Positions 3,311 through 20,243 of a stretch of 26,956 bases of DNA are shown here, one piece after another; positions within the stretch are counted from its first letter, which is position 1; every line of letters begins with the position of its first letter. Made by a program: the position numbers and the translations under genes. The stretch comes from a virus, in IMG/VR virus record IMGVR_UViG_3300045738_002244, positions 1-26,956 of that record; one strand, 5' to 3'. The notes under the pieces were generated by a model that was not told the DNA's origin, made no database searches, and was given only the letters and a program-made list of their open reading frames with translations.

Positions 3311-3658
3311 ATGAAAGACCTAGCACCAGATATTGTGAGGCAGAGAATGGTCGTTGAGGGAACCCTCCACAAACCCTTTGGCCCATTGGATATGGTTAAT
3401 TATTGTAACGAGGTAAGCAAAGAACTAAACATGACTTGCGTTACCGCTCCCATATGTAACTATGATCCCGCTTACGGCTGGTGCGCATACATGCACTGGA
3501 AAGAGTCCGGAATACATATTTATGCTTGGGATGATAGAAAGCCTCCGTTTTTTTCGATAGATATCTATACTTGCAAGGCATTTAAGGAAGAAGAGGTCTC
3601 AAGATTTACGAAAGATTTTTTCGGCGATAACCTTATAGACTTGGAGTGGACAACTTAA
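3311..3658 (+). CDS. SpeD-like protein (S-adenosylmethionine decarboxylase fold), specificity uncertain
   Basis: A 115-residue protein whose centre aligns with the bacterial SpeD core. GWCAYMHWKESGIHIYAW followed by SIDIYTC matches the SpeD pattern 'G.......ES....HTWPE....(V/I)D.FTC'. In SpeD the chain self-cleaves before the Ser of 'ES' to make a pyruvoyl group, and the later Cys is a catalytic proton donor; here these are Glu65-Ser66 and Cys88. Differences are clear. The essential His before Trp (SpeD His68) aligns with Tyr71, the residue after Ser is Gly not His, and there is a two-residue insertion before the D-x-Y-T-C strand. The enzyme may thus decarboxylate another substrate (such as arginine or ornithine), or be inactive. 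Known SpeD genes are polyamine-synthesis genes carried by some phages. No other polyamine gene is visible. Confidence 0.6.
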   Translation: MKDLAPDIVRQRMVVEGTLHKPFGPLDMVNYCNEVSKELNMTCVTAPICNYDPAYGWCAYMHWKESGIHIYAWDDRKPPFFSIDIYTCKAFKEEEVSRFTKDFFGDNLIDLEWTT

Positions 3659-3676: not shown

Positions 3677-4333
3677 ATGAAGAAAATATTGTCCTTATTT
3701 TTAGCTTTTGTTTTTAACGCGTATGGTGGGGCCAACGAAAACCCGTATCAAAAGATCACAGAAAGAAACGCTTTTGAGCTCACAGACAAAGAGCCAGCAC
3801 CCCCCCTTCCTCCGGCCGAAAAGATTCTAGCCCCAAACATCTTCCTCACTGGTATTACCCGCTGGAAGGGCACCAACAAGGTTCATCTCGTGTTAAGAAA
3901 AACCGGAGAACCGGATAAGTTTGTCTCTCTTGGGGTGAACGAAAAACAATACGACATAGAACTTAAAAAAATACTCCGAGACGCTGTCCTCGTTTCGACC
4001 GACGGCAACAACAAACTACTAAGCTTTGAAAACAACGGCCTTCCCACTATCATCACCAAACCTGCCACCGCAAAAAGAAGCCCCTCTTCAAGCAGGTACT
4101 CACGAGACAGGAGAGAAGACAGCAACAAAAAAGAAGAAAAGAAAATCTCTCCACAAATCCCCAAACCACAAATCGTAACCGTCCCTTCTCGCAGACCCCA
4201 AGTAGACCCAAGAATTATTGAAAAAGGGTTGGAATATTTAAGCAAGATGGAAGATGGAGAAAAGAGAGATTACCTGCTTAAGAGAATGGAATCCCTCCAG
4301 TCAGGTGAAGGACACTCTCGGCGTAGTAAGTGA
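3677..4333 (+). CDS. Secreted/periplasmic protein with a secretion- or pilus-protein-like domain
   Basis: A 218-residue protein. It has a Sec-type signal peptide: basic MKK, a hydrophobic core ILSLFLAFVFNAY, and probable cleavage after GGA (about residue 19). The mature part begins with a Pro-rich linker (NAFELTDKEPAPPLPPAEK). A beta-rich domain at about 50-120 follows (FLTGITRWKGTNKVHLVL ... VLVSTDGNNKLLSFENNG). That 'NpF.L...tGI...g..kv.L...V.v...G....L.f' layout resembles the periplasmic regions of GspC- and PilP-like proteins. The tail is low-complexity Ser/Arg/Lys/Pro-rich, then helical. It may have been picked up from a host envelope gene and could modify the host surface, but function is inferred from resemblance only. 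Its stop overlaps the GTG of the next gene. Confidence 0.6.
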   Translation: MKKILSLFLAFVFNAYGGANENPYQKITERNAFELTDKEPAPPLPPAEKILAPNIFLTGITRWKGTNKVHLVLRKTGEPDKFVSLGVNEKQYDIELKKILRDAVLVSTDGNNKLLSFENNGLPTIITKPATAKRSPSSSRYSRDRREDSNKKEEKKISPQIPKPQIVTVPSRRPQVDPRIIEKGLEYLSKMEDGEKRDYLLKRMESLQSGEGHSRRSK

Positions 4334-4542
4334 AAATAGATAAAGAGAATTTAATTCAATTCGTTAATATCGTAAATGATTGCTGTGCGGTTATGGATGA
4401 CGACCATGTTGCGGAGTGGTTAACTAAACCCAATTCTGACCTTAACATGGAAGCCCCCATAGAGCTTGTAAATACCCAAGCGGGAAGGGAGAAAATACTT
4501 CGACTACTTTATTTTATAGAGATAGGCGAAGCTGATCTTTAA
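4330..4542 (+). CDS. Stand-alone MbcA/ParS/Xre-type antitoxin toxin-binding domain
   Basis: Seventy residues starting at a GTG that overlaps the previous stop (GTGA). Residues 25-68 read as the C-terminal domain of Xre/MbcA/ParS antitoxins (DUF2384 family). Visible features are a short helix then 'AEWLTKPNSDL' (Trp30, Leu31, Pro34-Asn35), 'EAPIELVNTQAGREKI' (Pro43, Leu46, Gly52), and a final helix ending 'FIEIGEADL' (Ile63, Gly66). The family consensus runs 'a..WL.tPN..L.g..P.eLl.t..G...v...L..ie.G'. In known systems this domain plugs the active site of RES-domain NAD-degrading toxins. The usual N-terminal DNA-binding part is missing, and no RES toxin gene is adjacent, so this is an orphan antitoxin-like protein. 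I infer a possible anti-defence role. Confidence 0.65.
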   Translation: MKIDKENLIQFVNIVNDCCAVMDDDHVAEWLTKPNSDLNMEAPIELVNTQAGREKILRLLYFIEIGEADL

Positions 4543-7500
4543 GGAGCCGGAACAGACGAACCTCGAGCGACAGTTCCATCAGAAAACCTTTCGTAAGTTA
4601 CTACATAAGGGACTCCATTTACGTTTTCTATGATACTAAAAATTCCTACCTGATTGTCTCCGATAGTAATCGTTGCGTCAGCCTCAAGAACGTTACTAAT
4701 GAAAACGGGAGCGTCCGGTAAAACAGCAAAAGTACCTATGGAATCATGAGTCCCCCCCGAAAGGAGTATGTCCATGGCTGTTTGTTCACTTACGGTTACC
4801 TTAGGCACTTTTACGGTTATCTTGTTATCGGAATTTAAAGTAAAGTCTCCAGCCAGAACCGCATAAGCTACGGATTCTGACACCGGCGAAAAGTAAACAG
4901 TATCAACAGCGCTAAAACCTTGCCCCGAAATCTCTACCGAACTGCCAGTCACCCCCATTTCGGGCCCAAAGCCGGTAGCATCAACCCACGTTCCATTGAA
5001 AACCAAAGGATCGCTAAAATAATCTTTTTGCCTAGGAGCAAAATCATAAGAATCTGAATCTCTGTAAGAATTATACAATGACCCATATCCCCCATCGATG
5101 ACGGTACTTTCTCCCCCGTTTAATAACAAAAGATGACCCGTTCCGATAAAACTATCTTTTGAGACGCATTGTGCTACGCTAACAAACGTATTATTAACTC
5201 CCGACATCCCCGTCTCGTACAGTTCAGAAAAAATTCCTCCGGTAGCTTCTCCTGTTACCCCTAAATTATATCCGGTCCCCGAAATAAGAGCAATTGGGGC
5301 CCCCGAAACAACCTGAGAAGGAGACATATAAAAATTTACCCCTGTAACCGATAAAGGAGCCCCCGTAGCAATAGCCCCCCCTACCCCTGTCCCGTCTATA
5401 CCCGTCACGACTGCGAGAGAATTTATCATCTCGGAAGGCTGGTAAATTGCAGAATTGGACTGACCACTGAAGATCATATGAGAAGCATTCCTTATCCCAG
5501 TGGGAACCGAAAACGAAACAGTTTGAATGTTATTCACTGGATCAAAATCTATACCACTACTTGAAGTATTCAAAGCATGTACGTAATCCCCAGTTGCGCC
5601 GGTAAGCAAAACATTAAGACCAGACAAATTATTTCCGCTGGCCACTATAGACCCTCCCGGAACTTCCCACCCTTCATAACCACTCAAAGAAAACACATTT
5701 AATCCACTTCCGTCGCATGAAGAATCAAAAGTTCCAGTTCTCCCAAGGTAATCTACAAAATTAAATAATCCACTATTAGGATTTATTTCCGTCGGCACTG
5801 AGAAATCCAACCCCTCATAATTTCTCTCCCCCAAAATGTTGGTTGTGAACTTATTGCTTTCTCCTGATACCTCGAGTTTCTCAATTAAATATAGCCTTCG
5901 CCCAGACACATGAACGTTTCCTCCCACAGCCACCACCTGATTGTAATCTATAGTAGTAGGCTTTTCTGAATTCTTTTCCCCCACCCAATAACCACTAACA
6001 ATGGGCTTACCGGGAACCACCACCAAATCCGTTTCCGAAAACACATTGCCACCACGAGTAAAAATTCCTATTTTATCGCTTGTAACATCCTCGTTCACCG
6101 TAAACAAAATACCACTGATACTACTCCCGTCAGACTGGGTTGCAAAACCTGCCACATCCACCTCCCCTATACGAACCCCAGTGACCTGTTCGAAAAATCC
6201 CGATACAGTCACTCTCGTATCAGCTACGGTGACTTTAGAGGGAGCAAACCCACTTAATTCTGGTGAATGATAAACACCTAGCACGGTATTTTCTAAGGCT
6301 TGTCCTCTTTGATTTTTAACTTTTATTTTGTACTGTCCCGTAGTAAATGCAGTGGGATACGTAAACTTGCATTCGGTGTAATCACTCACGAATCCGCTGC
6401 ACGGCATCTCTCTATATTCGTTACTCATGGTGTCTTTAACCAGTATCGCTGACGTACCCGAATAAAGATTTGTTCCTGTTATAACCCCGGTTGCGTTTGG
6501 GGCTATATTAGTAATAGGATCCACGGCGGAGATAGAAGGGTTTCCATACCCAACGAATTGATCTACACCCGTAACATCCCCATAGGTCCCAGACAAAGTT
6601 ACATTATAGGCTTGATGAACGTAAATTGTGCTGATGTCTGTTCCCACGATAACCCTCACAGAGGTTCCTTCCGGACTGCCAATCAAAGCGCTAGTTCCAT
6701 AGGTCCCGATTCCCAAGGCCCCCCCCGTTATCGCTGCTCCTGTTATGTGGAAGAGATTATTTCCCTTTATTGTAAGCATATTTCCAGCTATTCCCGAAGC
6801 AGGATCAGTAGTGTTGTTATACTCATTTACAACGGATGTTATCAAAGGGGGGGAGTATTTAGGAAAGAAATTTATATCAGAAGGAAAGGTTTCTGGATAA
6901 TGATTAGAATAAAGAAACAGAGAGCCGCTTCCGGTGGGGACCGTGGACGGAACTATACCTGTCATAACCCTATCGTCCACCAAATTAAACAAACCTGTTG
7001 TTCCCTCTCCACCAAAACCAACCAAATACCCACTCGCAGACAAATCAGTCTCCTTCGAATCATAAAGAATTTCTGGAATAAAGTTTTCTCCCGATAAACG
7101 AATAGTGTCCCCCGCTCCGACATAAGTAGTGACTCCATCTATAACTTGCGAAGAAGACGAAGCGTTGGGGCCGTACCCGGTGAGTTTGGCCAATGATTTG
7201 AACTCTAAATCTGTATTTCCAGAGACAACTAAACCACTCCGCAACAAGACGCTCACTTTACCCCAAACATCTCCGCTCGGAACAGTGGTCTGAAGATTTG
7301 CTCCTACCACAGACGCTGCAGAAATTATATCATTAAAACTAACGCCAGTAGCGCCACCGAAATTTCGCCCAATAATATCTACTGTCTCTCCCGTCACCTG
7401 TTGACCCGTACTCAACCCCACTATCTCAGGAATAGGAACAAACTTATTGGAAGCAGGAGAGTTTCCGCTAGAAATAGATGTGCTCCCGTTCAAACCAGTT

Positions 7501-7931
7501 CGCAAAGAGGAACGCACCCTTATAACATCCCACAATGAATTTTGCGGAACGACTAGATTTAATTGCTGTTTGTTAACTTTATAAAATTCAGCACTTGCAT
7601 CCCCAAAATCTACGTTCGTTATTTGGTGGAAGTTGGACCCTGTTATCAACACCAAGTCTCCGGCTCGTCCCGACCACTGTTTAACTTCTCCCACGGAAAC
7701 TTGATCATCGGGCCTCAAAATAACATTAACCTCCCCCGCTGAAACTACAGAGGTACTTGTGTCCACAAAAACCTCATTACTAAACGCTCCCTCGGGAACT
7801 TTACCCGAAATGCCCGTGGTATCCAAATAGGTCAAAGCCTTCACCGGCTCTTCACCCACCCTAACTTTCTCCACGAAATTCAAATTAACCCCGCTAACTA
7901 AGAAACCGCTATTTGGATAAAGAGTAGGCAT
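4539..7931 (-). CDS. Large IPT/TIG (Ig-like) repeat protein, probable virion tail component
   Basis: An 1130-residue protein made almost wholly of immunoglobulin-like IPT/TIG units of roughly 80-110 residues. Each has the core '(V/I/L)x(I/V/L)(S/T)Gxn(F/L)' followed by a short strand. I count about eleven such cores, for example VLITGSNFHQITNVDFG, VDIIGRNFGGATGVSF, IRLSGENF, LTIKGNNLFHITGAAI, VHVSGRRL, LSVTGVNF and VEISGQGFSAVDTVYF. There is no signal peptide. TIG units in phage virion proteins typically decorate tubes, sheaths or fibres and mediate weak carbohydrate or host-surface contact. The gene follows three tail-tube-like genes on the same strand with a seven-base gap, so I infer a tail surface or fibre protein. 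Its stop overlaps the stop of the convergent upstream-block gene (shared TTAA). Confidence 0.75.
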   Translation of the reverse strand: MPTLYPNSGFLVSGVNLNFVEKVRVGEEPVKALTYLDTTGISGKVPEGAFSNEVFVDTSTSVVSAGEVNVILRPDDQVSVGEVKQWSGRAGDLVLITGSNFHQITNVDFGDASAEFYKVNKQQLNLVVPQNSLWDVIRVRSSLRTGLNGSTSISSGNSPASNKFVPIPEIVGLSTGQQVTGETVDIIGRNFGGATGVSFNDIISAASVVGANLQTTVPSGDVWGKVSVLLRSGLVVSGNTDLEFKSLAKLTGYGPNASSSSQVIDGVTTYVGAGDTIRLSGENFIPEILYDSKETDLSASGYLVGFGGEGTTGLFNLVDDRVMTGIVPSTVPTGSGSLFLYSNHYPETFPSDINFFPKYSPPLITSVVNEYNNTTDPASGIAGNMLTIKGNNLFHITGAAITGGALGIGTYGTSALIGSPEGTSVRVIVGTDISTIYVHQAYNVTLSGTYGDVTGVDQFVGYGNPSISAVDPITNIAPNATGVITGTNLYSGTSAILVKDTMSNEYREMPCSGFVSDYTECKFTYPTAFTTGQYKIKVKNQRGQALENTVLGVYHSPELSGFAPSKVTVADTRVTVSGFFEQVTGVRIGEVDVAGFATQSDGSSISGILFTVNEDVTSDKIGIFTRGGNVFSETDLVVVPGKPIVSGYWVGEKNSEKPTTIDYNQVVAVGGNVHVSGRRLYLIEKLEVSGESNKFTTNILGERNYEGLDFSVPTEINPNSGLFNFVDYLGRTGTFDSSCDGSGLNVFSLSGYEGWEVPGGSIVASGNNLSGLNVLLTGATGDYVHALNTSSSGIDFDPVNNIQTVSFSVPTGIRNASHMIFSGQSNSAIYQPSEMINSLAVVTGIDGTGVGGAIATGAPLSVTGVNFYMSPSQVVSGAPIALISGTGYNLGVTGEATGGIFSELYETGMSGVNNTFVSVAQCVSKDSFIGTGHLLLLNGGESTVIDGGYGSLYNSYRDSDSYDFAPRQKDYFSDPLVFNGTWVDATGFGPEMGVTGSSVEISGQGFSAVDTVYFSPVSESVAYAVLAGDFTLNSDNKITVKVPKVTVSEQTAMDILLSGGTHDSIGTFAVLPDAPVFISNVLEADATITIGDNQVGIFSIIENVNGVPYVVTYERFSDGTVARGSSVPAP

Positions 7932-7938
7932 AATTAAA

Positions 7939-8763
7939 TCAATGGTCTAAACCTGTAACGCTGTTCACAACAGGCTCGGGGCCGGAAAGAGCGCTTTGGG
8001 TTATGTTAACTGTCTGTTTGATGTAGTCACCAGCAGAGGAAGCTAAATTTCTGCTGTTTATAACCCCCGAACAAACGAAGCTCTCCACTACATTTAAACT
8101 GGAGTCTTTAAGGTTAACCGATATCTTGGCGGCGTCTCCAGATATAGGTAAATAACCCGTGGGATTATCTATTTCAAAATTTATATTAACGGTTTTTGCC
8201 CCGAAACTGATGTCGCTCGGGACAGTTTCGTTCATTAGGTAAACGGGTCTCACTTCCGAGCTATAGTTATAGGTTCCCGCTATGAAGTTGTCTACGGCAC
8301 CCGTAGTAAACTCACCCTCGACTGCAGCATGAGCCATGTTTAAAATTTGAGTATTGGACGGAGCTGGTTGGTTTACGGGAGAAAAAACCCCTCTAGCATA
8401 GTCGAAAAAATCCACTGTCGCACTGGCTGAAGTAGGCGAATTGGGAGAAAAATTAACCGAATATGAAGTCAAAAAACCGCTCGAAAAATAAAGCCCACCA
8501 AAATTCCCTGACAATTGCTGACTACCTGAAAATGGTATCTCGCCTTGACCCGTAATAAACTCCTTAAAATAATCTTTTCCCGTAATATAGTAACTAAAAC
8601 TAAGCTGTCCCCCAATCCCATTCCCGGGAACCTGATCTTGGGTATGACGCTGGGTCATTAAATACTTGGGAGACAGACTTGTCCCAAGAGATATTTGAGC
8701 GCTGGAAGCTAAAATCTCATTATCATTGATGAGTAATCTTGAATTGTCAGCCGAATAAACCAC
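7939..8763 (-). CDS. Tail-tube-like protein, paralogue 3
   Basis: A 274-residue beta-rich protein. It starts with a GTG (MVYSADNSRLL), one base after the previous gene's stop. It shares a layout with the two upstream genes: an N-terminal strand pair with 'SAQISLGTSLSPKYLM', a central 'FSSGFLTSYSVNFSPNSP' matched by 'FSEGYLETYSVSCGIG' in paralogue 1 and by 'GSGYLNSYGVGIQGN' in paralogue 2, and a second half opened by 'VRPVYLMNETVP'. Large tail tube proteins of this type form stacked rings around the tape measure. Which paralogue is the main tube protein is not certain. No Cys-rich or metal site is visible. Neighbouring tube-like and TIG genes on the same strand support a structural role. Confidence 0.6.
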   Translation of the reverse strand: MVYSADNSRLLINDNEILASSAQISLGTSLSPKYLMTQRHTQDQVPGNGIGGQLSFSYYITGKDYFKEFITGQGEIPFSGSQQLSGNFGGLYFSSGFLTSYSVNFSPNSPTSASATVDFFDYARGVFSPVNQPAPSNTQILNMAHAAVEGEFTTGAVDNFIAGTYNYSSEVRPVYLMNETVPSDISFGAKTVNINFEIDNPTGYLPISGDAAKISVNLKDSSLNVVESFVCSGVINSRNLASSAGDYIKQTVNITQSALSGPEPVVNSVTGLDH

Positions 8764-8764
8764 A

Positions 8765-9625
8765 TTAATAAGCCGCCGTTAGATTTTTTTGGGTTCTTAC
8801 TATGTCATCCATTCCAGCAGACATCGCAGTAGAAACCTGTTTCGCACCACTAAGCCCAATTGTCATACCATTAGCATCCCCTAAACCCTTAACGGTTAAA
8901 GTAAGATCATTGGCTGCTGAATCGAAAGCCAAACCCGACTGGAAAATATCCTCTGTTATCCCCAACGTTTCTTGTGCATTCGTGTAAAGACACGTCATCG
9001 GAAATTCCTGTCCCACTTTATATACAGGGTTGTGGTTGAAAGTTATCGAATAATCAGCGCCAAAAACATTGGCGGAGCTGCTATCGCCCGCTATTGATGT
9101 TGCAAAATTATCTAAATTAGTATAACGTCCATGTGCGACACCGGTGGCTAGCTTCCCTGTTTGAATAGTCTGTCCTGCAAAATCATCCAGCCTTCCTGTT
9201 ACCGGAAGTTGTGTTCCTGACCCAAAGAAAGTAAATCCACAACTAGAGGAAGACACTGAATTGCCCTGTATCCCCACTCCGTAAGAATTCAGATAACCAC
9301 TTCCTGTAACACCAGCGAATCTAATCTCCACCCCACTTACTTCTGAATTATTAGCAGCCGCCTCCTTTATACCACTGGCTAAAGAGTTAATTATATTACC
9401 ATTAACCCCAAAATACGTTCCAGTAATAGTAGTTAAAAAAGAAAAAGATAAATCCCCCTGTCTTGCTCCAGCCGGAAACTGTCCTAACGTGCCCTTGCTT
9501 CCAATAGCGTAAAGGGGAGCTTGAGCGCTGGAAAAACTTAAGGAACAATCGGTAGCTAAAAGTTGCTCAGACACACCGTTGTGCGTGACCTCTACCGCTG
9601 CCTTATCATAAAATACCGTTGCCAT
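8765..9625 (-). CDS. Tail-tube-like protein, paralogue 2
   Basis: A 286-residue protein rich in Gly, Ser, Thr and Ala, as expected for a beta-barrel tube subunit. The N-terminal half contains 'QAPLYAIGSKGTLGQFPAGA', a pattern I associate with phage tail proteins, and 'GSGYLNSYGVGIQGN', the element shared with the paralogues. The second half includes 'FNHNPVYKVGQEFPM', equivalent to 'RPVYLMNETVP' and 'VPIYTLNADKP' in the others. It ends with a helical Ala/Thr-rich segment (KQVSTAMSAGMDD). The ATG at 9625 has AAGGA nearby and lies 18 bases after the GTGTAA element shared with other tail genes. It has its own 30-base upstream gap, so it may be separately expressed at high level. That would fit the major tube protein, but this is an inference. 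Confidence 0.6.
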   Translation of the reverse strand: MATVFYDKAAVEVTHNGVSEQLLATDCSLSFSSAQAPLYAIGSKGTLGQFPAGARQGDLSFSFLTTITGTYFGVNGNIINSLASGIKEAAANNSEVSGVEIRFAGVTGSGYLNSYGVGIQGNSVSSSSCGFTFFGSGTQLPVTGRLDDFAGQTIQTGKLATGVAHGRYTNLDNFATSIAGDSSSANVFGADYSITFNHNPVYKVGQEFPMTCLYTNAQETLGITEDIFQSGLAFDSAANDLTLTVKGLGDANGMTIGLSGAKQVSTAMSAGMDDIVRTQKNLTAAY

Positions 9626-9635
9626 GACCTTTTCC

Positions 9636-9652
9636 TTGTTTTATTACACTTT
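9636..9652 (-). promoter_or_regulatory. AGTGTAATAA promoter-like element before tube paralogue 2
   Basis: On the minus strand the 30-base spacer reads aaaAGTGTAATAAAAC then an AAGGA ribosome site. The same AGTGTAA-A/T-rich core precedes tube paralogue 1 (minus strand, 10511-10516) and, as CGTGTAATATAAT, precedes the M-like gene on the plus strand. It could be a TG-extended -10 box. No convincing -35 accompanies it. Confidence 0.3.
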
Positions 9653-9655
9653 TTT

Positions 9656-10495
9656 TTACCTTAATATAAAGGATCGTAAATTAAAATTAGCTACCGCATT
9701 AGATTTTGCATCGCCCTGAAACGATTCTGACGTCAAAAGCATATTGTCAAACGAGTACGAAAGTAATGTAGTATCAGAATTGTTTTTTTTCAAAGTTATT
9801 GTAGCGTTGCGGAAAACGGTCTCGTCTGGGACGAATCTCATGTTTTTTATCTCATAATCATCAACATCCAATGAAAAATTGACATTTACCTCTATCGGAG
9901 TACCGGCAATCACCTTAGCAGGCTTGTCGGCGTTAAGGGTATAGATAGGAACCCGAGGAGTGGCGATGTCTACGCTGAAAGAACGCATACGATTGGTGGT
10001 GAATTCATCTAAATTTACTTCCATGGAATTATAACTAGCTATATTTAGACTGGGAATAAGCCCGGGTGCTTGAGCATACTCAGAAAACAGCACCCCAGTT
10101 CCAAAATCTCCAAAAATTGTAGAAGTCGTAGAAGTTTGAGGAACCTCACCTATACCACACGAAACAGAGTAGGTTTCCAAATAACCCTCTGAAAAATAAA
10201 TTTTTTCAGCTCCATAGTCAATTATCCCACTAAAAGGAATATTTCCCGTTAAGTTTTGCATTACATCAAGGGACATTTGGCTACTGTATCCCTCTTCAAG
10301 AGTGTGGGTTAGCAAAGTGTTTAATTGTAGACTTGCTGTTTGGGCCCCTTGAGGCGCGTATTGTATTTCTGTAATTCCCAAGGAATCCAACGGCCGCGCT
10401 ACCGATTCGTACTGAGTAGAAATAGACTGAACCCCCAATATTCCGGTCCTATTGATGGTGATATTCTCAGCCTCTCTCCTAATTCTTCCTAACAT
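9656..10495 (-). CDS. Tail-tube-like protein, paralogue 1
   Basis: A 279-residue beta-rich protein. Unlike the other two it begins with a basic arm (MLGRIRREAENITINRTG). The shared central element is 'FSEGYLETYSVSCGIG' followed by a Thr/Ser-rich strand and 'GDFGTGVLFSEYAQ', comparable to 'VDFFDYARGVFSP' in paralogue 3. The second half opens with 'RVPIYTLNADKPAKVI' and ends in a strand-rich tail (FNLRSFILR). I infer a tail tube, tail terminator-like or tube-cap role, because two clearly related genes follow on the same strand and the tail-tip module lies divergently next to it. It is first in the minus-strand operon and reads from the 63-base divergent promoter region. AAGATAAGG lies shortly before the ATG as a ribosome-binding site. 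Confidence 0.58.
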   Translation of the reverse strand: MLGRIRREAENITINRTGILGVQSISTQYESVARPLDSLGITEIQYAPQGAQTASLQLNTLLTHTLEEGYSSQMSLDVMQNLTGNIPFSGIIDYGAEKIYFSEGYLETYSVSCGIGEVPQTSTTSTIFGDFGTGVLFSEYAQAPGLIPSLNIASYNSMEVNLDEFTTNRMRSFSVDIATPRVPIYTLNADKPAKVIAGTPIEVNVNFSLDVDDYEIKNMRFVPDETVFRNATITLKKNNSDTTLLSYSFDNMLLTSESFQGDAKSNAVANFNLRSFILR

Positions 10496-10558: not shown

Positions 10559-11128
10559 ATGGCTGAGAGTATTTATACCGTAGAAGATTGGGCATCGGGC
10601 ACATCCTATCTAAAAAACAACATTGTTTTGAGGAGGGAAGACATCGGAGACACCGGAATTCCCAAGAAAATTAAATATTATTATGCCGCGAAAAGCAGCA
10701 CCGGCAAAACACCCCCCACCAACAATGACCAATACTGGGCTGGATACGTGGACTCAAACGGAGTCTCTGTCCCTCTTTTTACATGGACTCCTTCTTACAA
10801 CGTAACCACCAGTCACAAACCAAGAACTTTGACTGTAAATTTCGGAAATGGCTATGAGGAAAGAATTCCTGACGGCATCTTTAATACATTAATATCTCTA
10901 AGCGTTTCCTTTGATTTGCGAAACGAAACGGAAACTACAGCTATTTTGCATTTTTTGAGAACCCGCAAAGGATCAGAAAGCTTTATTGTTCAAAATCTCC
11001 CACAACCATACGCCGATATACCGGAAGGTGGCTACAGGAAAAAGTTCATATGTGATAACTTTTCTAGTACTTTTTCTTTTCACAATAATTACAGCATAAA
11101 GGCTACATTTATACAGAAAAATAACTAA
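10559..11128 (+). CDS. M: Lambda M-like minor tail protein with N-terminal carbohydrate-binding-like module
   Basis: A 189-residue protein. Residues about 75-187 match the lambda gpM-type minor tail protein: 'TLTVNFGNGYEERIPDGIF', then a strand with 'SVSFDLRNETETTAILHFL', then 'TRKGSESF' and a final 'STFSFHNNYSIKATFIQ'. In lambda gpM links the tube end to the tip. Residues 7-62 are extra. DWASGTSYLKNNIVL ... KYYYAAKSSTGKTPP ... QYW has the W-x-Y-xx-N/D-x-V ... YYA-K ... PP ... W pattern of small type 5/12 carbohydrate-binding (chitin-binding type 3) modules. The ATG is preceded by AAGGA and a strong promoter. Next gene follows after two bases. The module is an inference from spacing of aromatics. 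Confidence 0.8.
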   Translation: MAESIYTVEDWASGTSYLKNNIVLRREDIGDTGIPKKIKYYYAAKSSTGKTPPTNNDQYWAGYVDSNGVSVPLFTWTPSYNVTTSHKPRTLTVNFGNGYEERIPDGIFNTLISLSVSFDLRNETETTAILHFLRTRKGSESFIVQNLPQPYADIPEGGYRKKFICDNFSSTFSFHNNYSIKATFIQKNN

Positions 11129-11130
11129 AA

Positions 11131-13074
11131 ATGCCATATACTCCGACCAAGAGCATAGCCCAGTCCTCTTTCAAATCTGTTAGCGCGGAACTCGCCAACC
11201 TAAACCCTTCCGCGATCATAACCTTTTTTGAAATAGACGTTAGCGATGTTATGGAGTCAAATAATATAGCCAATTTGGGAGTGGAGGCGGATGCTTATGG
11301 AGTAACCCAAGATGTTCAAGATAATATTTTACGTTTTCATAACAGCATTAATGTTTTTAACTCGTTTTTAAAATGGCAAGGTAACACCTACTACCCATCC
11401 GCGATACAAGGAGAGGGCTTTGAAACTTCCTCCCGAGGAACCCTCCCAACGCCAACCCTAACAATAGTAACTCAAGGTTCCCAGAAAGACTTAATGGGGC
11501 TCCTCCGACATCAAATAAGAAAGTTTGGAGACATTGTAGGAGCCAAAGTAACACGCATAAGAACTTTTGCTAAATATTTAGACGTAGATAATTTTTTAGC
11601 GGTGGACGCCGAGGGGAAAGTTTCCCCGAACGCCTTACAAGATATGGCGACCGAAAACTTGGGAGAAATACCCGCTGGCTTTGAGCCTGACCCCTATGCG
11701 GAACTTCCCCGTGATATATATTATATAGAAAGAAAAGAAGCGGAAAACAAATCAATTTTAAAATACCAACTTTCTTCTAATTTAGACTTGGAAGGAATAC
11801 AAATCCCCAAAAGAATGATATTGGCCGACCGTTGCATGTTCGATTACCGCGGACCGGGATGTTGGTACCAACACAAGTACGAGACTGAAAGCTATAAGCT
11901 TGTATCATCGGTTTGGGCTGGAAGCGGGGCCGGAAACTGGGCTAATGCGACCACTCGAGATCAGGTTATATCTAACGGCGCACACAGTGGATCCCCTTAC
12001 ATGATATCAGTCGACCCCATCAATAATATTTTCCACACTGGTTACGTTGTTAATTTTTCAAGCGGCGCTACTTTTACCCTAAGCGATAACGTCTCTCTTT
12101 CTCCCGCCTCTACCCAGTATCCTGTCGGATCCACCAACCTTTTCGGATCCTTAAGTGGGTCTATTGCCAATGACGAAACGGGAACAATAAACTACAGTTA
12201 TGATACCCTTACAAGCAACACATCTAACGCTGAAATAACTGTTGCCTTAAGAAGTGGAGGAGGCTCAAGTACTAATGTAAACTTTTCAGTAGCCAACTCT
12301 CCCGCTTTCCCCGCCACCCCTAAGGAAGAATATGAATTAAAATTTAATTTTGCCTTCCTTAACGCCTCTAGCGAACAGTATCCCAATTTTCAAATCCAAA
12401 ATGCCACTGACATCAACAGTAAAGTAGGATGGAAGCAGGGATGGTCAACTATAACCCGAGCCGCCCAAGAAGGAACCACCATATTAAGATTCACTGTTAA
12501 TAATAAGGCGACAGGAACGGGAAACAACGCCATGCTTGTAGCCTCAAATACCAAATATGCAAATTGGAAAATAACAGATGTCACCCTCAACAAAGTAACC
12601 TCAAGACCACCCATTTTAAACAAAGCTGGATTAGATTATGGCAACTACGGAGAGACCCTATTACCCGAAAAAGCGCCACCAGTAGCGACAGACAACGATG
12701 AAAAAATAACCGAAGCGCTAGGAACCCAACTTCAGAAATCTAGATTTGATGATAAAGGACTATGGAACACCGCCCTTCAATACGAAACTGGAGATTACGT
12801 CTACCAGTTAAAAGATGATTTAAAATATTATTATGTTTGTAAAAAATCTCATTCAGGATTTCCCCCTCCTCACTCCTCTTATTGGATACCTGACCAATGC
12901 TCAAAAAGCCTTACTGGATGCCGGTTGAGATGGGGAACTAAAGCTTCAGGAGGGGCGGTCATAGGCTCAAAATGCATTATAGGTGGAGCCGCTACGGCAG
13001 GCGGAAAGGGTGGGCTTCCCTACGGAGGATTCCCAGCAGCCACCCAAGTACAACAAAGATTTATGTCCCGATGA
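11131..13074 (+). CDS. L: Lambda L-like iron-sulphur tail-tip protein with a large insertion
   Basis: A 647-residue homologue of lambda gpL (232 residues). The N-terminal part (1-246) follows lambda: a 'FFEIDVSD' strand, 'KWQGNTYYPSAIQGEGFE' (lambda: WQGRQYQPYPIQGSGFE), then 'KYLDVDNF' and 'LADRCMFDYRGPGCWY'. The last matches lambda LANTCTWTYRGDECGY. The C-terminal end has 'DQCSKSLTGCRLRWG' and 'LPYGGFPA', matching lambda KCSKCLSGCKFR and FGGFL. The four cysteines (235, 244, 590, 597) have lambda's spacing within each pair and in lambda hold a 4Fe-4S cluster. Between the pairs lie about 345 residues instead of about 22: a jelly-roll-like region (to about 520, ending WKITDVTLNKV) and a carbohydrate-binding-like module (W545-W585). 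The stop overlaps the K gene start (ATGA). Confidence 0.88.
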   Translation: MPYTPTKSIAQSSFKSVSAELANLNPSAIITFFEIDVSDVMESNNIANLGVEADAYGVTQDVQDNILRFHNSINVFNSFLKWQGNTYYPSAIQGEGFETSSRGTLPTPTLTIVTQGSQKDLMGLLRHQIRKFGDIVGAKVTRIRTFAKYLDVDNFLAVDAEGKVSPNALQDMATENLGEIPAGFEPDPYAELPRDIYYIERKEAENKSILKYQLSSNLDLEGIQIPKRMILADRCMFDYRGPGCWYQHKYETESYKLVSSVWAGSGAGNWANATTRDQVISNGAHSGSPYMISVDPINNIFHTGYVVNFSSGATFTLSDNVSLSPASTQYPVGSTNLFGSLSGSIANDETGTINYSYDTLTSNTSNAEITVALRSGGGSSTNVNFSVANSPAFPATPKEEYELKFNFAFLNASSEQYPNFQIQNATDINSKVGWKQGWSTITRAAQEGTTILRFTVNNKATGTGNNAMLVASNTKYANWKITDVTLNKVTSRPPILNKAGLDYGNYGETLLPEKAPPVATDNDEKITEALGTQLQKSRFDDKGLWNTALQYETGDYVYQLKDDLKYYYVCKKSHSGFPPPHSSYWIPDQCSKSLTGCRLRWGTKASGGAVIGSKCIIGGAATAGGKGGLPYGGFPAATQVQQRFMSR

Positions 13075-13817
13075 AACTAACGCAATACATAAAAGAACAC
13101 ATTAAATCCCACGCTTTGAAAGACGCCCCAAAGGAGTGCTGTGGTTTGATAGTGGAAAAAGATACCGCCCGCAAAGTCTTTAAATGCAAAAACATCTCTA
13201 CTTCCCCCCTAACTAGCTTTTCTCTAGACCCATTGGATTATTTAAAGTGTGCCTCTCAAGGAAAAATAAAAAGTGTTTACCATTCGCATTTGGAAGAAGA
13301 GGAGTTCTCAGAAGCAGACAAGACGAACAGTTCCTATCATAATGTTAACTATATAATGTTTAACATCAAAAATAATTCTTTTCGAGAATTTAATCCCAAG
13401 AAACAACAGACTTTATACCTCAACAAGCCCTTCAAGGTGGGGGTGAATGATTGCTTTACCTTGGTTCGAGACTACCTAAGCGAAAATACAAAAATACAAC
13501 TTCCACCCGAAGTTTGTGAAGCTTATTTTTTTGGAGCCCGAAAAGAAAATCTACAGAAAGCCATAGACCTCATTGACGAAGTGGCGTTATCTTATGCCAG
13601 AAAAGATTTTTCGAAGATATTTGTATCACACCTCGACGAGTTAAAGAAGAATGACATTTTGGTAATAGGGCTTCGGGAAAATAATACCCCTCTGCACTTA
13701 GCGGTGTATTTAGGAGACAATATGGTTATCCATCACCCCAGAAACAAATATGTTACCACCGAAAAAGTAATTTCCTCCTTTGCTAACCGAATCATTTATG
13801 CTTATAGACCCCAATGA
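13071..13817 (+). CDS. K: Lambda K-like tail-tip peptidase: JAMM metalloprotease domain plus NlpC/P60 domain
   Basis: A 248-residue homologue of lambda gpK. The start is the ATG at 13071, overlapping L's stop; a longer in-frame start at 12972 would lie inside L and only add non-homologous residues. The N-terminal half is a JAB/JAMM metalloprotease-like domain with Glu22 in KECCGLIVEK and the zinc motif HSHLEEEEFSEAD (His71, His73, Ser80, Asp83). The C-terminal half is NlpC/P60: catalytic Cys128 in VNDCFTLVRDY, His209 in PLHLAVYLGD, and His221/His222 in the later HHPRN. In lambda K is needed to assemble the tip and may cut peptidoglycan or other proteins at infection. All key residues appear intact. 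Its stop overlaps the I gene start (ATGA). Confidence 0.9.
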   Translation: MKLTQYIKEHIKSHALKDAPKECCGLIVEKDTARKVFKCKNISTSPLTSFSLDPLDYLKCASQGKIKSVYHSHLEEEEFSEADKTNSSYHNVNYIMFNIKNNSFREFNPKKQQTLYLNKPFKVGVNDCFTLVRDYLSENTKIQLPPEVCEAYFFGARKENLQKAIDLIDEVALSYARKDFSKIFVSHLDELKKNDILVIGLRENNTPLHLAVYLGDNMVIHHPRNKYVTTEKVISSFANRIIYAYRPQ

Positions 13818-14590
13818 AAAAATTAACACACATAACTTTGCATGGCATCCTGTCTGAACAGATAGGAAGACAAAATTTTGACTTGGCTGTAAGCAGCGTA
13901 GGGGAAGCCATGAGGGGAATTCAGGCCAACTGTAAAAAACTCTACAAATCACTTATAGAAAATGATGAGAAAAATATAAAATATAGAGTGTTAATAAATA
14001 AGAAAGATTTCTTGGTGGAAGAAGGTAAAGACCTCAACACCGAAGAAGGGATCAGATCATCAGAGTTAACGATGAATTTTCAGGATCTTAAGACGATAGA
14101 TATTGTTCCAGTAATGGAAGGCGAATCATCTCAGGAAAGAAAAGCAGATTCAAAATCTATTTTTGCAATAATAGCGGGTATTTTCTTGATAGCTCTTGGA
14201 ATTTGGATGGGGGGTAATCCGTACTTAATAATGGCGGGCTTAGGGCTACTGTTGGCAGGCGTATCGAACCTTCTTACTCCCACTCCTAAATTCGAAGATG
14301 TAAGGGAAATTGAAGGGGGAGGGAAGCCTTCCTACATGTTTAGCGGTCCCCAAAATACCGTACGGGAAGGTGGCCCCGTTTTTGTGGGGTACGGCAGACT
14401 TCTAGTTGGAAGTCATGTCATTCAAACTTCTCTAGATACTCTTGACACGGCTGCAGACATTATCCTAAACGATACATGGGGAATGTCTGACCACGGACTA
14501 CTCTATAGGATAAATAATCCGTCGGGAGGAGAACGCCTAAGACGACGAGTGCAACACGATTCCGATTGGACAGGGGGCCCTACAGGATAA
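13814..14590 (+). CDS. I: Lambda I-like tail-tip assembly protein
   Basis: A 258-residue homologue of the lambda gpI family. It starts with a ubiquitin-like beta fold (MKKLTHITLHGILSEQIG; 'FDLAVSSVGEAMRGI'), ending near 'IDIVPVMEG'. Two closely spaced hydrophobic helices follow (about residues 116-131 and 136-153), then the conserved C-terminal part 'FSGPQNTVREGGPVFVGYGR' and 'VGSHVIQTSLDT', matching lambda's 'GPVNT...G.PV...YG'. In lambda, I helps assemble the J tip and its hydrophobic segments are thought to pack in the tip or reach into the host membrane. A further 50-residue tail (NPSGGERLRRRVQHDSDW...) is variable. ATGA overlap with K; J starts 13 bases after the stop. Confidence 0.85.
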   Translation: MKKLTHITLHGILSEQIGRQNFDLAVSSVGEAMRGIQANCKKLYKSLIENDEKNIKYRVLINKKDFLVEEGKDLNTEEGIRSSELTMNFQDLKTIDIVPVMEGESSQERKADSKSIFAIIAGIFLIALGIWMGGNPYLIMAGLGLLLAGVSNLLTPTPKFEDVREIEGGGKPSYMFSGPQNTVREGGPVFVGYGRLLVGSHVIQTSLDTLDTAADIILNDTWGMSDHGLLYRINNPSGGERLRRRVQHDSDWTGGPTG

Positions 14591-14603
14591 GGAAAAAATT
14601 TAA

Positions 14604-17600
14604 ATGGCAGAATATGTAGAACAAGCACGACCTCAGGTAACTGACATAGGGGCAGTGGTAACAGGGGGAAATACTGGCGCTCCGGTCGTTTCCGAATCCC
14701 ATGTAGAAGTTGCCGATTTGTTGTGCGAAGGCCCAATAGAAGGTATCGTAAGCGGACGCTACGACTATTACGGCACAAAAGGAGAAACCGGATACCAAAA
14801 GGTAGTCACCCCCGATGAAGGTTCCCCCTTTGGGAGTTATGATCCCAATAACCGCTATACAGCCACAGGAACCACTGTGGACCCAGCAAACCCCTTAACA
14901 TCCTTGGGCTTTCTCCGATCCATCTATTGGAACCAAGTACCGGTTGTAGACGAAGACGGTTATTACAATTTCCAAAATATTAATGTTGAATGGGTCAACG
15001 GCGAACCGGGAGGAAGCCTACCCGCTTTAAACGCCAACATGGGGGGACTTACCGCTTCGGAAATTTTAGATTTGAGCGTCAACCGAAACATCGGGGAAAG
15101 GCTTTATGGCCCCGATATTAAAGGAAGCGACAACGCCCCGACATTCACACGGGGCGCAGAATTAAAAGACGGGACTAAAATAGATAAAAACGCCAAGACC
15201 TATACTATACTAAACCGCGAATGCAGCTCAATAATTGTTAACGTAAAAGTGTCGTCCCTTAGTGAAAGTATACAAAACGATGATGCCCCCAAGGTTTTCA
15301 AAAGAAACTATCAACTAGAACGGGGCGGTGATGCTGCGGTAGGATACGGTGATGTAAAAGCCCGCACAGTAGAATATTGGATATATTATCAGCCTGTTTT
15401 CGATGAAAGGTTCAATATGCCGTCTGACAGCGAGTTTAAAAACCCAAACGATAATACGAAAGTAGATGTAAAGAAAAGACAAACTAAATGGTTCGGCCCA
15501 GTGACAGAAAGAGTATGGGGACAAATAAATCAAGGATATGTTCGTTCAACAAAAATAAACCTAGAAGCGGGCGTTGGGGACTATAAAGACGAGGATGGTT
15601 TCGATGGATGGAGAATTAGGATAGTCAGACTTACCCCCGAACCACTTACATCCTTTTTCAGAGCGGTAACTTTTGTGGATTCAATCGTAGAAATTTACGG
15701 AACAAAATTGCGCTATCCTTATAGCGCAATGGTTTATTCTAAATTTGATGCCACTAATTTCAGCAGAATTCCCGCGCGAGCTTACGACACAAAACTACAA
15801 AAAATAAAAATTCCAAACAATTATGATCCCATAACCAAGACTTATGGCCAAAGCGGAGGGATAAGTCCCACCACCGATCCATCGAACCTTTACGGAACTG
15901 ATCCTGCTAATTTTTGGGACGGAAACTTTGTGGAGAAAAGGGTGTGGTGCGACAACCCGGCTTGGTGTTTTTATGACATGCTTACCAACTCAAGGTACGG
16001 ACTGGGAGGATATTTAAAAGAATCCGAAATAGATAAATGGTCTTTGTATGAAATAGCGCAATATTGTGATGTTCTTGTTCCTGATGGATACGGATCAGTT
16101 GAACCCCGTTTTACCCTTAACCACCTCATAGTATCCAGAAATGAGGCTTATAAACTAATAAACGACTTGGCCTCTGCCTTCCGAGGATTAACCTATTATT
16201 CGAACGGCTTGGTTTTTGCAGTTCAAGACGCCTACAAAAAACCCACCTACCAACTTAATAACTCCAATGTAGTTGATGGAGACTTTACATACGCATCATC
16301 TGCCAAAAAGGCTCGCCATACAGTGGCCCTTGTTAGATACATAGATAAAAGAAACTTTTTCCAACCAGCTATAGAATACGTTTCCGACGAGGAAGGCATA
16401 AAGAAATACGGCATAAGACAAATAGAAACCGCCGCTATAGGGTGCACGAGCCGCGGACAAGCAAGAAGATTTGGGTTATGGATATTGGCCAGTGAAAAAA
16501 ATGAAACAGACTCAGTAAGCTTCAAGATGGGAACCGCAGGGGCCTATCTAAAACCCGGAGACATAATCCAAATTTATGACAACAATATAAGCCCCTTAAA
16601 ATATAGCGGTAGAACCAATATAGTCAGCGGACTGGCATTCGCTGCCGATCCCGGTGAGAGCGTTATAGGCAATACCGCATACAATAGCGTTATATTGGAT
16701 TCAGCCTTGAATTTCACCGCTGATAAAGCTTATAAATTTTCTCTTCTCACCCCAACGTATAACTATGATGCCAGTATAAAGGAGCTAAATTCTAGCGGAA
16801 TAAAGGAGCTTAATAGAAGCCACCTGCAAACCTTATACTTTAGTGGAGCTCATACTACCACCATTACAGGAGACTACCGCTCAGACTTTGAACTGGGGGG
16901 GAGCGGGGTTAATACACAGATATTCTTTAAAACCGGAGTTCCATTTGACCAATCTTATTTTTCTAACGCGGATTTCAGCGCACCCACCGGCAATCAACTG
17001 GATTTTGAAAATTATGTGATAACAGGATATATCAACAGCGGGGTAAATGTTGACGAAAACTCAAATACTTCGGCGGAATATTCCGGAGGATATTTCAATG
17101 GAGAAAATCTGGTGTGGAGCGTGGAGCCATATGACGAAACCGACAAGGAGTTTTACAGCGGAAACTTTTCTAATTTCAGAATAATAAACTCTAAAGAAAA
17201 CACAAATCAAACCTATGATATTTCGGCGCTTTCCTATTTCAGTGGAAAATATGATAACGTAGAACAAAAAGTCACCTTTGAAAATCCTTTCTTGAAAAGT
17301 AAACCAAATTGCGTAGAACAAGCGGGCTTCACAGTAGGACGCAGAGACCCGTCTATTGGAGGGGTGGAACAAGCACAATACGAGCTCCTGAACTTTTCTT
17401 TCACAGCAGTTGGCTACAGCTCTGAACCCGGAACAATAAATAGCGGCATAGATTATTTAATTGCTCTTAAAACAGGTAAAGATTTTACAACAATCCCCGG
17501 GGACACCCCCACAAATCTGGGATATAATGGCATAGATGCCACCGGATATAAACTTTATCACGACCCATACCATCAACTGGTAATACCCGGCTCAGACGAA

Positions 17601-20243
17601 TCCCAGAGACAGCGTACAACTAATACAGAAGGGGATATTGTCCCATCTGATATAATAAGCGGAAGCTTCTTCATCTCGGAACAGGTAGACCATTACGTTA
17701 GCGTCTTCTCCATTTCTCCCTATGGGGTACTCTCTCCTTGTGGTGTTACGGGAGTGCTTCCTGCAGAGAAAATTTTTGGAACTCAAAGTCTAGTTAATTT
17801 AATTGATATTTACGGATTAACAACCTCCGATATTCCCATCGGACCGGGGGGAACTCCCGGAGCAAAACCCACTTCATCTAACACTATACCTATTCCCGGA
17901 AACACCCCCAGTTTCAACTGGCAAGCTGGCATTAATATACAATTTGACACACCGGGAATTTATATAACCAACGATGAGGTAGAGTACCGAATAACAATAA
18001 GGGAGCCCGCGAAGGAAGAATTGGGGATAAATACGCCCAACTCCAACATATATTTCGAGTTCACCGGTTACAATTCGACCGTAATGAATTCTCCTTCGTT
18101 TACATTCGGCACCGATTACAATAACCCGGATATTTATGATGCATACAACCACTCAAACTCCGTGGAGGGAGGAGGAGCAGCCAAAGGGAAACTGTACTTT
18201 AGAAACGATGCAAGTGGGTATTTGGTGCAGTCGGGACTTTCATTACCGATTCGTAAATTTGACATTGTGGTGGAAGCTCATGACTTCTACGGAAGAACAA
18301 GCGTAGGCGGTTCCTCACTAGAGAAAACTAAAAATTCCAACAAGGTATATGACAACACCATAAACCCCTCTACTGCTGACAGTATTGAAGGAGGAAGCAG
18401 TGAGGGGTGGAACTATAGAAATGCAGATAACAGCGCAGGCCATCTGGGGGGCTATGATATTCTTGGCTGCTACATAGAACCAATATCGGGAATAGTCTTC
18501 CCCACTTCTGGAAATTTATTAAACAACGCCTATGTTTCCACCGAAGAAGCCTTTAATCGGGATTACCCTTACTTGGCATCGATGAAAACCTTCCCTAACG
18601 GGATGACCCAACTGGCCATAGATGAATCTGAAAGTTCTCAAGAAGGCAACTTTATACTTAACCAAACTCAAATTGACGATATATTTGCTGAAGCGGCTGG
18701 AATCGTTTACTACTATACCACAGGTAACGAAGACGTGGTGGAAATAGATTCGGCTGGAAATGTTATTAACGATCCGACAACCCAAACGGTAGCAGACAGA
18801 GAATCCCGTTGGCGTGCGCCTCAATTTACAATTGATCCAAGTAAAATACCCAATTCTATAAGCGGTAGAAAGTTTGGAAACGTACCAGACGCAGGTGGAG
18901 GGGCCGCTCAAAAAGCCGCCAGCGTATTGATTCAACCCGACACTTCGGCCGACGGGCTTGTTCCCGGCTATAACGAAACCAACAAAGAAAACGCAATCGT
19001 CTTTAGAGATTATGCACTTTTGGATCCCGGGCAAAAAGTTTCTAACCTCTTAAGAGTGCTGCCGGGAGCTGGTGCAAAATCAAAAGAAGTAAATATCGAC
19101 AACGCCCAGTTCTGTATTGGAGCTTTCGATCAACTCTCTTATCTCTCTCACTTTAACGATGACGGATCCGCCAAGAAAAAAACGGTAACATATACCTCAA
19201 AAAGCCCAGACGGTGAAACCCCACCGGGGTTTATAACAGATGCGACCGCCACATACGACGTCCCCACCATCTTTACAGACGGAAATATTAAATTCTCAAA
19301 GATTGCAAGCAAAGTAGAAATTACTAACGCGGACAACGACAGCATAGGGTTTGGAGGAAATCTGGACGCAAGATACAAAACCACCGAAAGTCCAACTTCA
19401 TTTCTTGTTGTTGAAGAAAGTTTAATCACAACCAAAGACAAGGATTTAAGCTATAAAGCATGGTTTGATTTCGATTTCGCCCCCATGCAAGCAACTAATG
19501 GAAAACAATATTTCGCAGTAACCAAGCCAGAACTCTTCATTGACGGAGCAGCAGACCGCGAAAGACCTTGGGACTGGTGCCTGAAACATACAGATGGGAA
19601 CACGAATTTAAAAGGTATTGTTTATGGCGATAAGGATATTAAACAAGGAAATATCCTAAACGGGAGAAACATTAAAGACATAAGAGTAACAAAAAACGTG
19701 ATGGCTGACTCCCTTTATTATGGAAACAGGGATGAGTCTGGTCGCGCTCAAAACATTTATCCTTCAGTAGGTTGTGAAATAGAAGTCTTTTTTTATGAGC
19801 CTCTTAACACCACTAAACAACCCACTCCGATACTTCAAGTGTATTCAAATGCTCCTTTCGGGGGAGAGAATTATAAATATACTCAACCCACCCCTACCAT
19901 GGAACAACAATACCATGTTCGCGGCGCATACGAGGGTCACGGGTTTTGGCGCGCTTGGACCTCCCTTCATGAATCGCCAAATGCCGGTATTGGGCCAGAG
20001 CCGTGGGATATTAGCGCGTATACCAGTATAATTTGGGGGCTCGGAAATAATTTTCTGGGGCCCCAACCCGATGTTCAAATGTTGGACGCTGATTTCAATC
20101 AGGATTTCGCAAGTAGTGTGAAGTTTTCTGTTAGGTTTTCTTATTTTGAGGACGCGAGCCATTTCGATCTAGCTCCATCCATTCCCCCTAACCTGAAAAT
20201 CGTATGCGGATTTTTAGAGAACTCCTACCACAGAAGCGTATAA
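14604..20243 (+). CDS. J: Lambda J-like tip attachment / host-specificity protein, long version
   Basis: An 1879-residue protein, well above lambda J (1132). The conserved core occupies roughly the first 700 residues. It includes 'SHVEVADLLCEGPIEGIVSG' after a short leader, 'RIVRLTPEP', 'IYGTKLRYPYSAMV', 'NPAWCFYDMLTNSRYGLG' (about 451-468) and 'YLKPGDIIQIYDN' near 648. These correspond to the hub domains of lambda J that form a trimeric tip around the tail end. The remaining about 1180 residues are beta-rich with Fn3-like stretches (for instance 'KFDIVVEAHDFYGRTS'), and lack recognisable lambda similarity, as expected for the receptor-binding part. A short repeat 'IKELN' occurs twice near residue 725-735. 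AAGGA precedes the ATG by about ten bases. The C-terminal 300 residues should determine host range, by analogy with lambda. Confidence 0.9.
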   Translation: MAEYVEQARPQVTDIGAVVTGGNTGAPVVSESHVEVADLLCEGPIEGIVSGRYDYYGTKGETGYQKVVTPDEGSPFGSYDPNNRYTATGTTVDPANPLTSLGFLRSIYWNQVPVVDEDGYYNFQNINVEWVNGEPGGSLPALNANMGGLTASEILDLSVNRNIGERLYGPDIKGSDNAPTFTRGAELKDGTKIDKNAKTYTILNRECSSIIVNVKVSSLSESIQNDDAPKVFKRNYQLERGGDAAVGYGDVKARTVEYWIYYQPVFDERFNMPSDSEFKNPNDNTKVDVKKRQTKWFGPVTERVWGQINQGYVRSTKINLEAGVGDYKDEDGFDGWRIRIVRLTPEPLTSFFRAVTFVDSIVEIYGTKLRYPYSAMVYSKFDATNFSRIPARAYDTKLQKIKIPNNYDPITKTYGQSGGISPTTDPSNLYGTDPANFWDGNFVEKRVWCDNPAWCFYDMLTNSRYGLGGYLKESEIDKWSLYEIAQYCDVLVPDGYGSVEPRFTLNHLIVSRNEAYKLINDLASAFRGLTYYSNGLVFAVQDAYKKPTYQLNNSNVVDGDFTYASSAKKARHTVALVRYIDKRNFFQPAIEYVSDEEGIKKYGIRQIETAAIGCTSRGQARRFGLWILASEKNETDSVSFKMGTAGAYLKPGDIIQIYDNNISPLKYSGRTNIVSGLAFAADPGESVIGNTAYNSVILDSALNFTADKAYKFSLLTPTYNYDASIKELNSSGIKELNRSHLQTLYFSGAHTTTITGDYRSDFELGGSGVNTQIFFKTGVPFDQSYFSNADFSAPTGNQLDFENYVITGYINSGVNVDENSNTSAEYSGGYFNGENLVWSVEPYDETDKEFYSGNFSNFRIINSKENTNQTYDISALSYFSGKYDNVEQKVTFENPFLKSKPNCVEQAGFTVGRRDPSIGGVEQAQYELLNFSFTAVGYSSEPGTINSGIDYLIALKTGKDFTTIPGDTPTNLGYNGIDATGYKLYHDPYHQLVIPGSDESQRQRTTNTEGDIVPSDIISGSFFISEQVDHYVSVFSISPYGVLSPCGVTGVLPAEKIFGTQSLVNLIDIYGLTTSDIPIGPGGTPGAKPTSSNTIPIPGNTPSFNWQAGINIQFDTPGIYITNDEVEYRITIREPAKEELGINTPNSNIYFEFTGYNSTVMNSPSFTFGTDYNNPDIYDAYNHSNSVEGGGAAKGKLYFRNDASGYLVQSGLSLPIRKFDIVVEAHDFYGRTSVGGSSLEKTKNSNKVYDNTINPSTADSIEGGSSEGWNYRNADNSAGHLGGYDILGCYIEPISGIVFPTSGNLLNNAYVSTEEAFNRDYPYLASMKTFPNGMTQLAIDESESSQEGNFILNQTQIDDIFAEAAGIVYYYTTGNEDVVEIDSAGNVINDPTTQTVADRESRWRAPQFTIDPSKIPNSISGRKFGNVPDAGGGAAQKAASVLIQPDTSADGLVPGYNETNKENAIVFRDYALLDPGQKVSNLLRVLPGAGAKSKEVNIDNAQFCIGAFDQLSYLSHFNDDGSAKKKTVTYTSKSPDGETPPGFITDATATYDVPTIFTDGNIKFSKIASKVEITNADNDSIGFGGNLDARYKTTESPTSFLVVEESLITTKDKDLSYKAWFDFDFAPMQATNGKQYFAVTKPELFIDGAADRERPWDWCLKHTDGNTNLKGIVYGDKDIKQGNILNGRNIKDIRVTKNVMADSLYYGNRDESGRAQNIYPSVGCEIEVFFYEPLNTTKQPTPILQVYSNAPFGGENYKYTQPTPTMEQQYHVRGAYEGHGFWRAWTSLHESPNAGIGPEPWDISAYTSIIWGLGNNFLGPQPDVQMLDADFNQDFASSVKFSVRFSYFEDASHFDLAPSIPPNLKIVCGFLENSYHRSV
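15707..15730. repeat. Perfect 10-bp inverted repeat (hairpin) inside the J gene
   Basis: ATTGCGCTAT, a four-base spacer CCTT, and ATAGCGCAAT form a perfect 10-bp stem. It lies wholly inside the coding region of J, where it encodes part of KLRYPYSAM, and is not followed by a T run, so it is not a terminator. It may be accidental or could slow ribosomes or an RNase. Confidence 0.7.

Follow-up and report, generated by a model that had tools for sequence, protein, structure and literature searches.

Can a phage make use of the toxin-binding half of an antitoxin when it carries neither the other half nor the toxin? The question is raised by a gene for a 70-residue protein in the 26,956-nucleotide stretch of viral DNA analysed here (IMG/VR record IMGVR_UViG_3300045738_002244, positions 1 to 26,956; hereafter the window). 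A first-pass annotation had described the product as an orphan MbcA/ParS-type domain in a phage accessory block, and had proposed that it is a minimal, pre-trimmed antidote against host RES toxins. The features on which the argument depends are as follows.

3677..4333, + strand: upstream gene of family C1, 218 aa, with a signal-peptide-like start and weak GspC similarity
4327..4329, + strand: in-frame stop TAA directly 5' of the GTG start (sequence)
4330..4542, + strand: antitoxin-like open reading frame, 70 aa, GTG start (ORF list, PF09722, 57 complete relatives of similar length, dN/dS)
4342..4392, + strand: N-terminal helix, residues 5-21, with the lineage-invariant N13, C18 and C19 (AlphaFold2 model, column counts over 58 sequences, hhalign)
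4396..4512, + strand: match to PF09722, residues 23-61 (29.5 bits, cut-off 24.5)
4477..4521, + strand: predicted C-terminal helix, residues 50-64 (AlphaFold2 model, Foldseek matches, mechanism in PMC11535050)
4525..4539, + strand: C-terminal tail G66-E-A-D-L70, with E67, A68 and D69 invariant (58/58)
4539..7931, - strand: convergent downstream neighbour of family C2, a TIG-like protein of 1130 aa that marks the edge of the tail block (ORF list, profile match)

Domain Identity and Predicted Fold

All sequence motifs quoted by the first-pass annotation are present in the protein, and the domain that they suggested was recovered by profile, profile-profile and fold comparison. The PF09722 match lies above the curated Pfam-A cut-off (E 7.5e-7), and the NCBIfam model of the RES/Xre antitoxin (NF049845) aligns residues 5-66 with its positions 47-109 of 112, at a score of 41.3 that falls under the full-length cut-off of 90, as expected of a half-length protein. 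Among the 19 relatives found first, 18 match PF09722 independently at E<=0.1 and 10 exceed the cut-off; the most divergent clade scores under it and is missed by Pfam. When the phage family was aligned by hhalign with three plasmid antitoxins that adjoin RES genes and whose domains were checked by profile, residues 5-66 paired with residues 82-144 (95.4%, E 1.7e-8), compared with 0.2% and 0.1% for two unrelated alignments that served as negative controls. In the full antitoxins this alignment starts where the HTH domain ends, and the N-terminal helix corresponds to the segment directly after it. The assignment of the protein as the toxin-binding half of an Xre/MbcA/ParS antitoxin is solid.

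The DNA-binding half is missing, as had been proposed. The N-terminal Xre-like HTH (PF20432) is present in the RES-paired controls and absent from the 70-residue protein, where the in-frame TAA just before the GTG excludes such a half. Loss of this half raises the possibility that the protein mixes with full-length host Xre or with its toxin, breaks the DNA-binding complex and alters how the host toxin-antitoxin operon is expressed. The repressing form of Xre-RES on DNA is a 4:2 assembly in which HTH domains are paired (PMC12204516), and a truncated subunit could poison it. However, de-repression would yield more toxin, for which a phage has no evident use, and the effect could accompany the action of an antidote instead of replacing it; we consider this explanation improbable.

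The predicted structure agrees with the profile evidence. AlphaFold2, run on the family alignment, gave a four-helix model (pLDDT 92) whose best 13 Foldseek matches in the PDB are all antitoxins of this family taken from complexes with RES-class toxins, including P. putida Xre, VPA0769, MbcA, ParS and NatR. The query TM-scores are 0.82 to 6gw6_B and 0.83 to 6fkg_C, and the E-values, 0.03 or weaker, reflect the short chain. A second model, of the most divergent clade, reached the same pLDDT of 92, and MbcA was again the top PDB match. The 70-residue domain is thus predicted to fold like the solved antitoxins in their toxin complexes, and in the model its C-terminal helix corresponds to the one with which antitoxins reach into the active-site groove of RES toxins.

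Relatives and Selection

A scan of IMG/VR with the single sequence found 19 related loci with 60-94% identity over the whole length, and an alignment-based scan raised this to 59 relatives, of which 57 are complete and two run off the end of their contig. Together with the window protein, the complete relatives make up the 58 members considered here. Every one of them is stand-alone (58/58), with at most 39 open codons upstream, too few for an HTH half. Eleven positions are invariant over the 58 members (L8, N13, C18, C19, P43, L59, L60, F62, E67, A68 and D69), and the most conserved segment of the family is C-terminal, L59-L60-Y-F62-I ... I-G-E67-A68-D69. The family also looked more conserved than most of its neighbours, a comparison to which we give no weight, since the loci had been chosen through conserved peptides of the same protein.

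For most close pairs dN/dS is about 0.03-0.06, with a highest value of about 0.12; the open reading frame is coding and is subject to strong purifying selection. The small size of the protein and the loss of one domain might suggest a functionless relic of an acquired antitoxin, or a spurious reading frame. Against this stand a dN/dS of about 0.03-0.1 in several pairs, the 11 invariant positions and the retention of the gene in two genome contexts; the dN/dS values led us to reject this explanation, and we regard its chances as close to nil.

The carriers form a lineage of uncultured phages, most of them large. Their origin is presumed to be marine or aquatic; the contig names carry no habitat. 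A scan of GTDB genomes (84,980 species) with the family confirmed no relative, and tblastn of the window protein against isolate phages (INPHARED) returned no match. A weak match of the relative L005 in a 634 kb uncultured phage lies inside a 320-aa protein and was rejected as chance; PHROGs likewise gave the 70-residue protein a chance match only. An uncultured phage protein of 73 aa in the UniProt/BFVD library of predicted structures has been named automatically for the same domain.

Genome Context and the Search for a Toxin Partner

The gene occurs in two unrelated genome contexts, which correspond to two well-supported, separate clades of the protein. Directly upstream, over 58 loci, lie the GspC-like secreted protein of family C1 (23 loci), a 2OG-Fe(II) oxygenase (14 loci), a putative sugar kinase, judged by eye (7 loci), and other genes in the remainder. 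In the window the C1 stop overlaps the GTG of the antitoxin-like gene by 4 nt, and most of the 23 loci with C1 upstream have the same overlap. Directly downstream, 27 of the 58 loci carry a convergent TIG-like tail-block gene (C2) of about 1.1 kaa. There is no obligate neighbour across loci and both contexts, a pattern that would fit a partner outside the phage genome, in the host.

The absence of a RES gene nearby, claimed for the window by the first-pass annotation, holds on a wider scale. Neither the window nor any contig of the 59 relatives, the largest of which reach 170 kb, gave a RES match (PF08808; 0/60 records), and the same search detects RES in control genomes. Both neighbours of the antitoxin-like gene are visible in the window, which rules out a partner gene just outside it. 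A toxin could instead be encoded elsewhere in the phage genome, so that the small protein would provide immunity to a RES or other ADP-ribosyltransferase of the phage's own. Phages can indeed carry RES-Xre pairs (PMC9503650), and the records of the window and its relatives are classed as linear and are often fragments. However, the partners of RES-Xre pairs are normally adjacent, and the RES genes found on plasmids adjoin full-length antitoxins; in addition to the empty RES search, the ADP-ribosylating family PF03496 had no match in the contigs of 20 of the larger relatives. We give a pair split in this way little credence.

How firmly the gene belongs to the lineage was assessed from the tail protein C5, which makes the test independent of the antitoxin-like gene. 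Of 38 informative tail-module loci, 34 carry this gene near the tail block; three further gene-less loci were left out as uninformative, their subclade having the gene about 4 kb away or elsewhere on the contig. In the four loci without the gene (L101, L106, L108 and L144) the block usually situated between families C3 and C2 is missing as well, and no diverged copy came to light there in a sensitive profile search. The gene is near-core in the lineage, yet it can be lost, and the earlier description of its surroundings as an accessory block understates its status.

Several other features of the window deserve mention in their own right. The tail module is divided between the strands in an unusual way: a very long glycine-rich tape-measure-like reading frame (21120-26873, - strand) and the TIG-like tail block (4539-10495, - strand) run counter to the tail-tip genes (10559-20243, + strand). 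Positions 3311-3658 encode a member of the S-adenosylmethionine decarboxylase family (PF02675, 33.7 bits, cut-off 25), possibly a polyamine-synthesis gene, and positions 350-739 a phage-encoded small heat-shock protein (HSP20, 60 bits).

The C-Terminal Tail

The segment that is most conserved in the phage family is also the one in which it departs from RES-paired antitoxins. The three RES-paired antitoxins compared end in R[IL]ExG-[VM]-[FYI]-[AS], whereas the phage family ends in FI[ED]IG-EAD, so that its invariant E-A-D stands where the others have a V-[FY]-[AS]-like ending and F62 occupies the position of the Arg. The R[IL]ExG ending is not a strict criterion, as some solved antitoxins do not have the Arg. 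The pair of cysteines in helix 1 is specific to the phage lineage. Together, the different tail and this CC pair suggest that the protein may have a partner other than an ordinary RES toxin; with a different plug, the target would be either a particular RES-like toxin or something else that the domain now binds.

The latter case would describe an antitoxin domain taken up long ago that has since acquired another partner, such as a host metabolic enzyme (Prs, for example) or a phage protein, and that has nothing to do with neutralising a toxin. Such a history would agree with the lineage-specific invariant residues unlike those of RES-paired antitoxins (N13, C18, C19, F62, E67, A68 and D69), with strong purifying selection and near-core presence, and with a position that, through much of one context, is conserved next to the tail block and the GspC-like gene. 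However, no neighbour is constant in both contexts, so that a phage-encoded partner gene is not evident, and all solved fold relatives found are antitoxins from complexes with RES-class toxins. We judge a change of partner to be a serious but somewhat unlikely account.

Pilus- and Secretion-Like Neighbours

Related phages have one to three genes for prepilin-type proteins (N-methylation, GFxLxE), which lie a few genes away from the antitoxin-like gene and in most cases upstream of it. Examples are L040:6933-7904 and 7889-8881 and L006:11795-12766, and short versions also occur (e.g., L048:2341-2637). They match TIGR02532 above the cut-off. Genes of this type are unusual for phages and are a possible clue to the host: their start, GFTLIELLVVIAIIAILAALLLPAL, is one that we take to resemble those of Verrucomicrobiota-type bacteria, and a weak TIGR02596 (Verru_Chthon cassette) match among them points to Verrucomicrobiota. 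A host of the Verrucomicrobiota type may be taken as a lead only. A second scan of GTDB, made with the prepilin-like protein, confirmed no relative, the peptide patterns used having fallen outside the pilin start, and the plasmids and phages searched gave no match. The C1 protein of the window carries an ERNAF.L motif and its similarity to GspC is weak (TIGR01713, E 7e-4); its presence with the prepilin-like genes suggests that these phages may interfere with type II secretion or pili of the host.

Discussion

The most likely reading is that the 70-residue protein serves as a ready-trimmed antidote to some host toxin with the RES or ADP-ribosyltransferase fold, and we give this an even chance. 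The protein would be made during infection and would bind a host toxin of this class, with its C-terminal helix and tail pushed into the toxin's NAD-binding groove. As takeover of the cell depletes the host antitoxin, NAD would then stay available, or the target of ADP-ribosylation would stay unmodified, to the benefit of the phage. The proposed plugging has parallels in studied pairs: in NatR-NatT the antitoxin extends its C-terminal helix into the groove of the toxin's active site (PMC11535050), a model of GndX shows the same arrangement (PMC12457610), and SlvA has been modelled as blocking SlvT through its C-terminal residues (PMC7301842). Moreover, in PDB entry 6D0H a ParS chain of 72 residues, labelled as an antitoxin fragment, is bound to ParT, which indicates that the domain alone can bind a toxin.

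RES toxins are not established as an anti-phage system. Deletion of NatT did not change the sensitivity of Pseudomonas aeruginosa to more than 50 phages (PMC11535050), and PADLOC (2023) models do not match the RES toxin tested. Low dN/dS and near-core status, too, would sooner be expected of a gene with a fixed function than of one caught in an arms race. A more specific form of the antidote proposal is that the near-core, domain-only family inhibits a not-yet-recognised class of anti-phage toxins with the RES/ADP-ribosyltransferase fold through the invariant LLYFI-x-IG-EAD plug; we advance it tentatively, as rather unlikely. If it were true, the hosts of these phages would routinely oppose phages with RES-like NAD-consuming toxins. 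Modules of the RES-Xre type occur widely, but the case for their acting against phages is weak, and a trimmed RES-antitoxin domain kept under strong selection would indirectly indicate that such toxins harm phages somewhere. The 70-residue protein could then serve as bait for fishing out the toxin, and would show that antitoxins can be naturally reduced to their toxin-binding half.

The protein shares its toxin-binding domain with the Xre/MbcA/ParS antitoxins (COG5642, DUF2384, PF09722) of the RES-Xre, MbcTA, ParST, SlvTA and NatRT systems, and differs from them in the absence of the HTH half and of an adjacent RES gene and in its other invariant tail. Similar in architecture is an orphan 62-aa PF09722 protein on plasmid p2SUD7 of Sulfitobacter sp. 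D7 (L163:2001-2189), likewise domain-only and without the HTH half; the incomplete annotation of the surrounding 4.2 kb shows no RES gene near it. It resides on a bacterial conjugative plasmid and its ending, RIEAGFAV, is nearer to the RES-paired type than to that of the phage family, of which it is possibly the plasmid counterpart. Plasmid leading regions are rich in orphan antitoxins (PMC11541004).

Toxin-less genes of antitoxin families, likewise proposed to act in counter-defence, have also been reported in other aquatic phages, the moraphages (PMC12619734) and cyanophage S-CREM1 (PMC9964418). In the accessible portions of these two reports the antitoxins are CcdA/HicB-like, YefM, TacA and MazE, and no family consisting of the Xre/MbcA/ParS C-terminal domain only was found among them. 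The earlier claim that the protein is of a kind not described was too strong, given these reports, the published antitoxin mimics (PMC11481870) and the 73-aa protein already auto-named for the domain; what stands is that the open-access literature searched yielded no report of an Xre/MbcA/ParS family in phages that consists of this domain only.

Other comparisons concern function. The folds of the phage antitoxin mimics Dmd and AdfB differ from the Xre/MbcA/ParS domain. T4 Dmd, directed against RnlA (PMC5308261), and ICP1 AdfB, directed against DarT (PMC11481870), are free-standing like the 70-residue protein and bind their toxins directly, as is proposed here; their toxins are other ones, and their function has been demonstrated, whereas that of the 70-residue protein is proposed. 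Inhibitors of NAD-based defence, such as DSAD1 against DSR2 (PMC11263360) and the counter-defence described in PMC11984713, act on effectors that degrade NAD, SIR2 ones among them, and not on RES toxins; like them, the 70-residue protein would protect NAD during infection.
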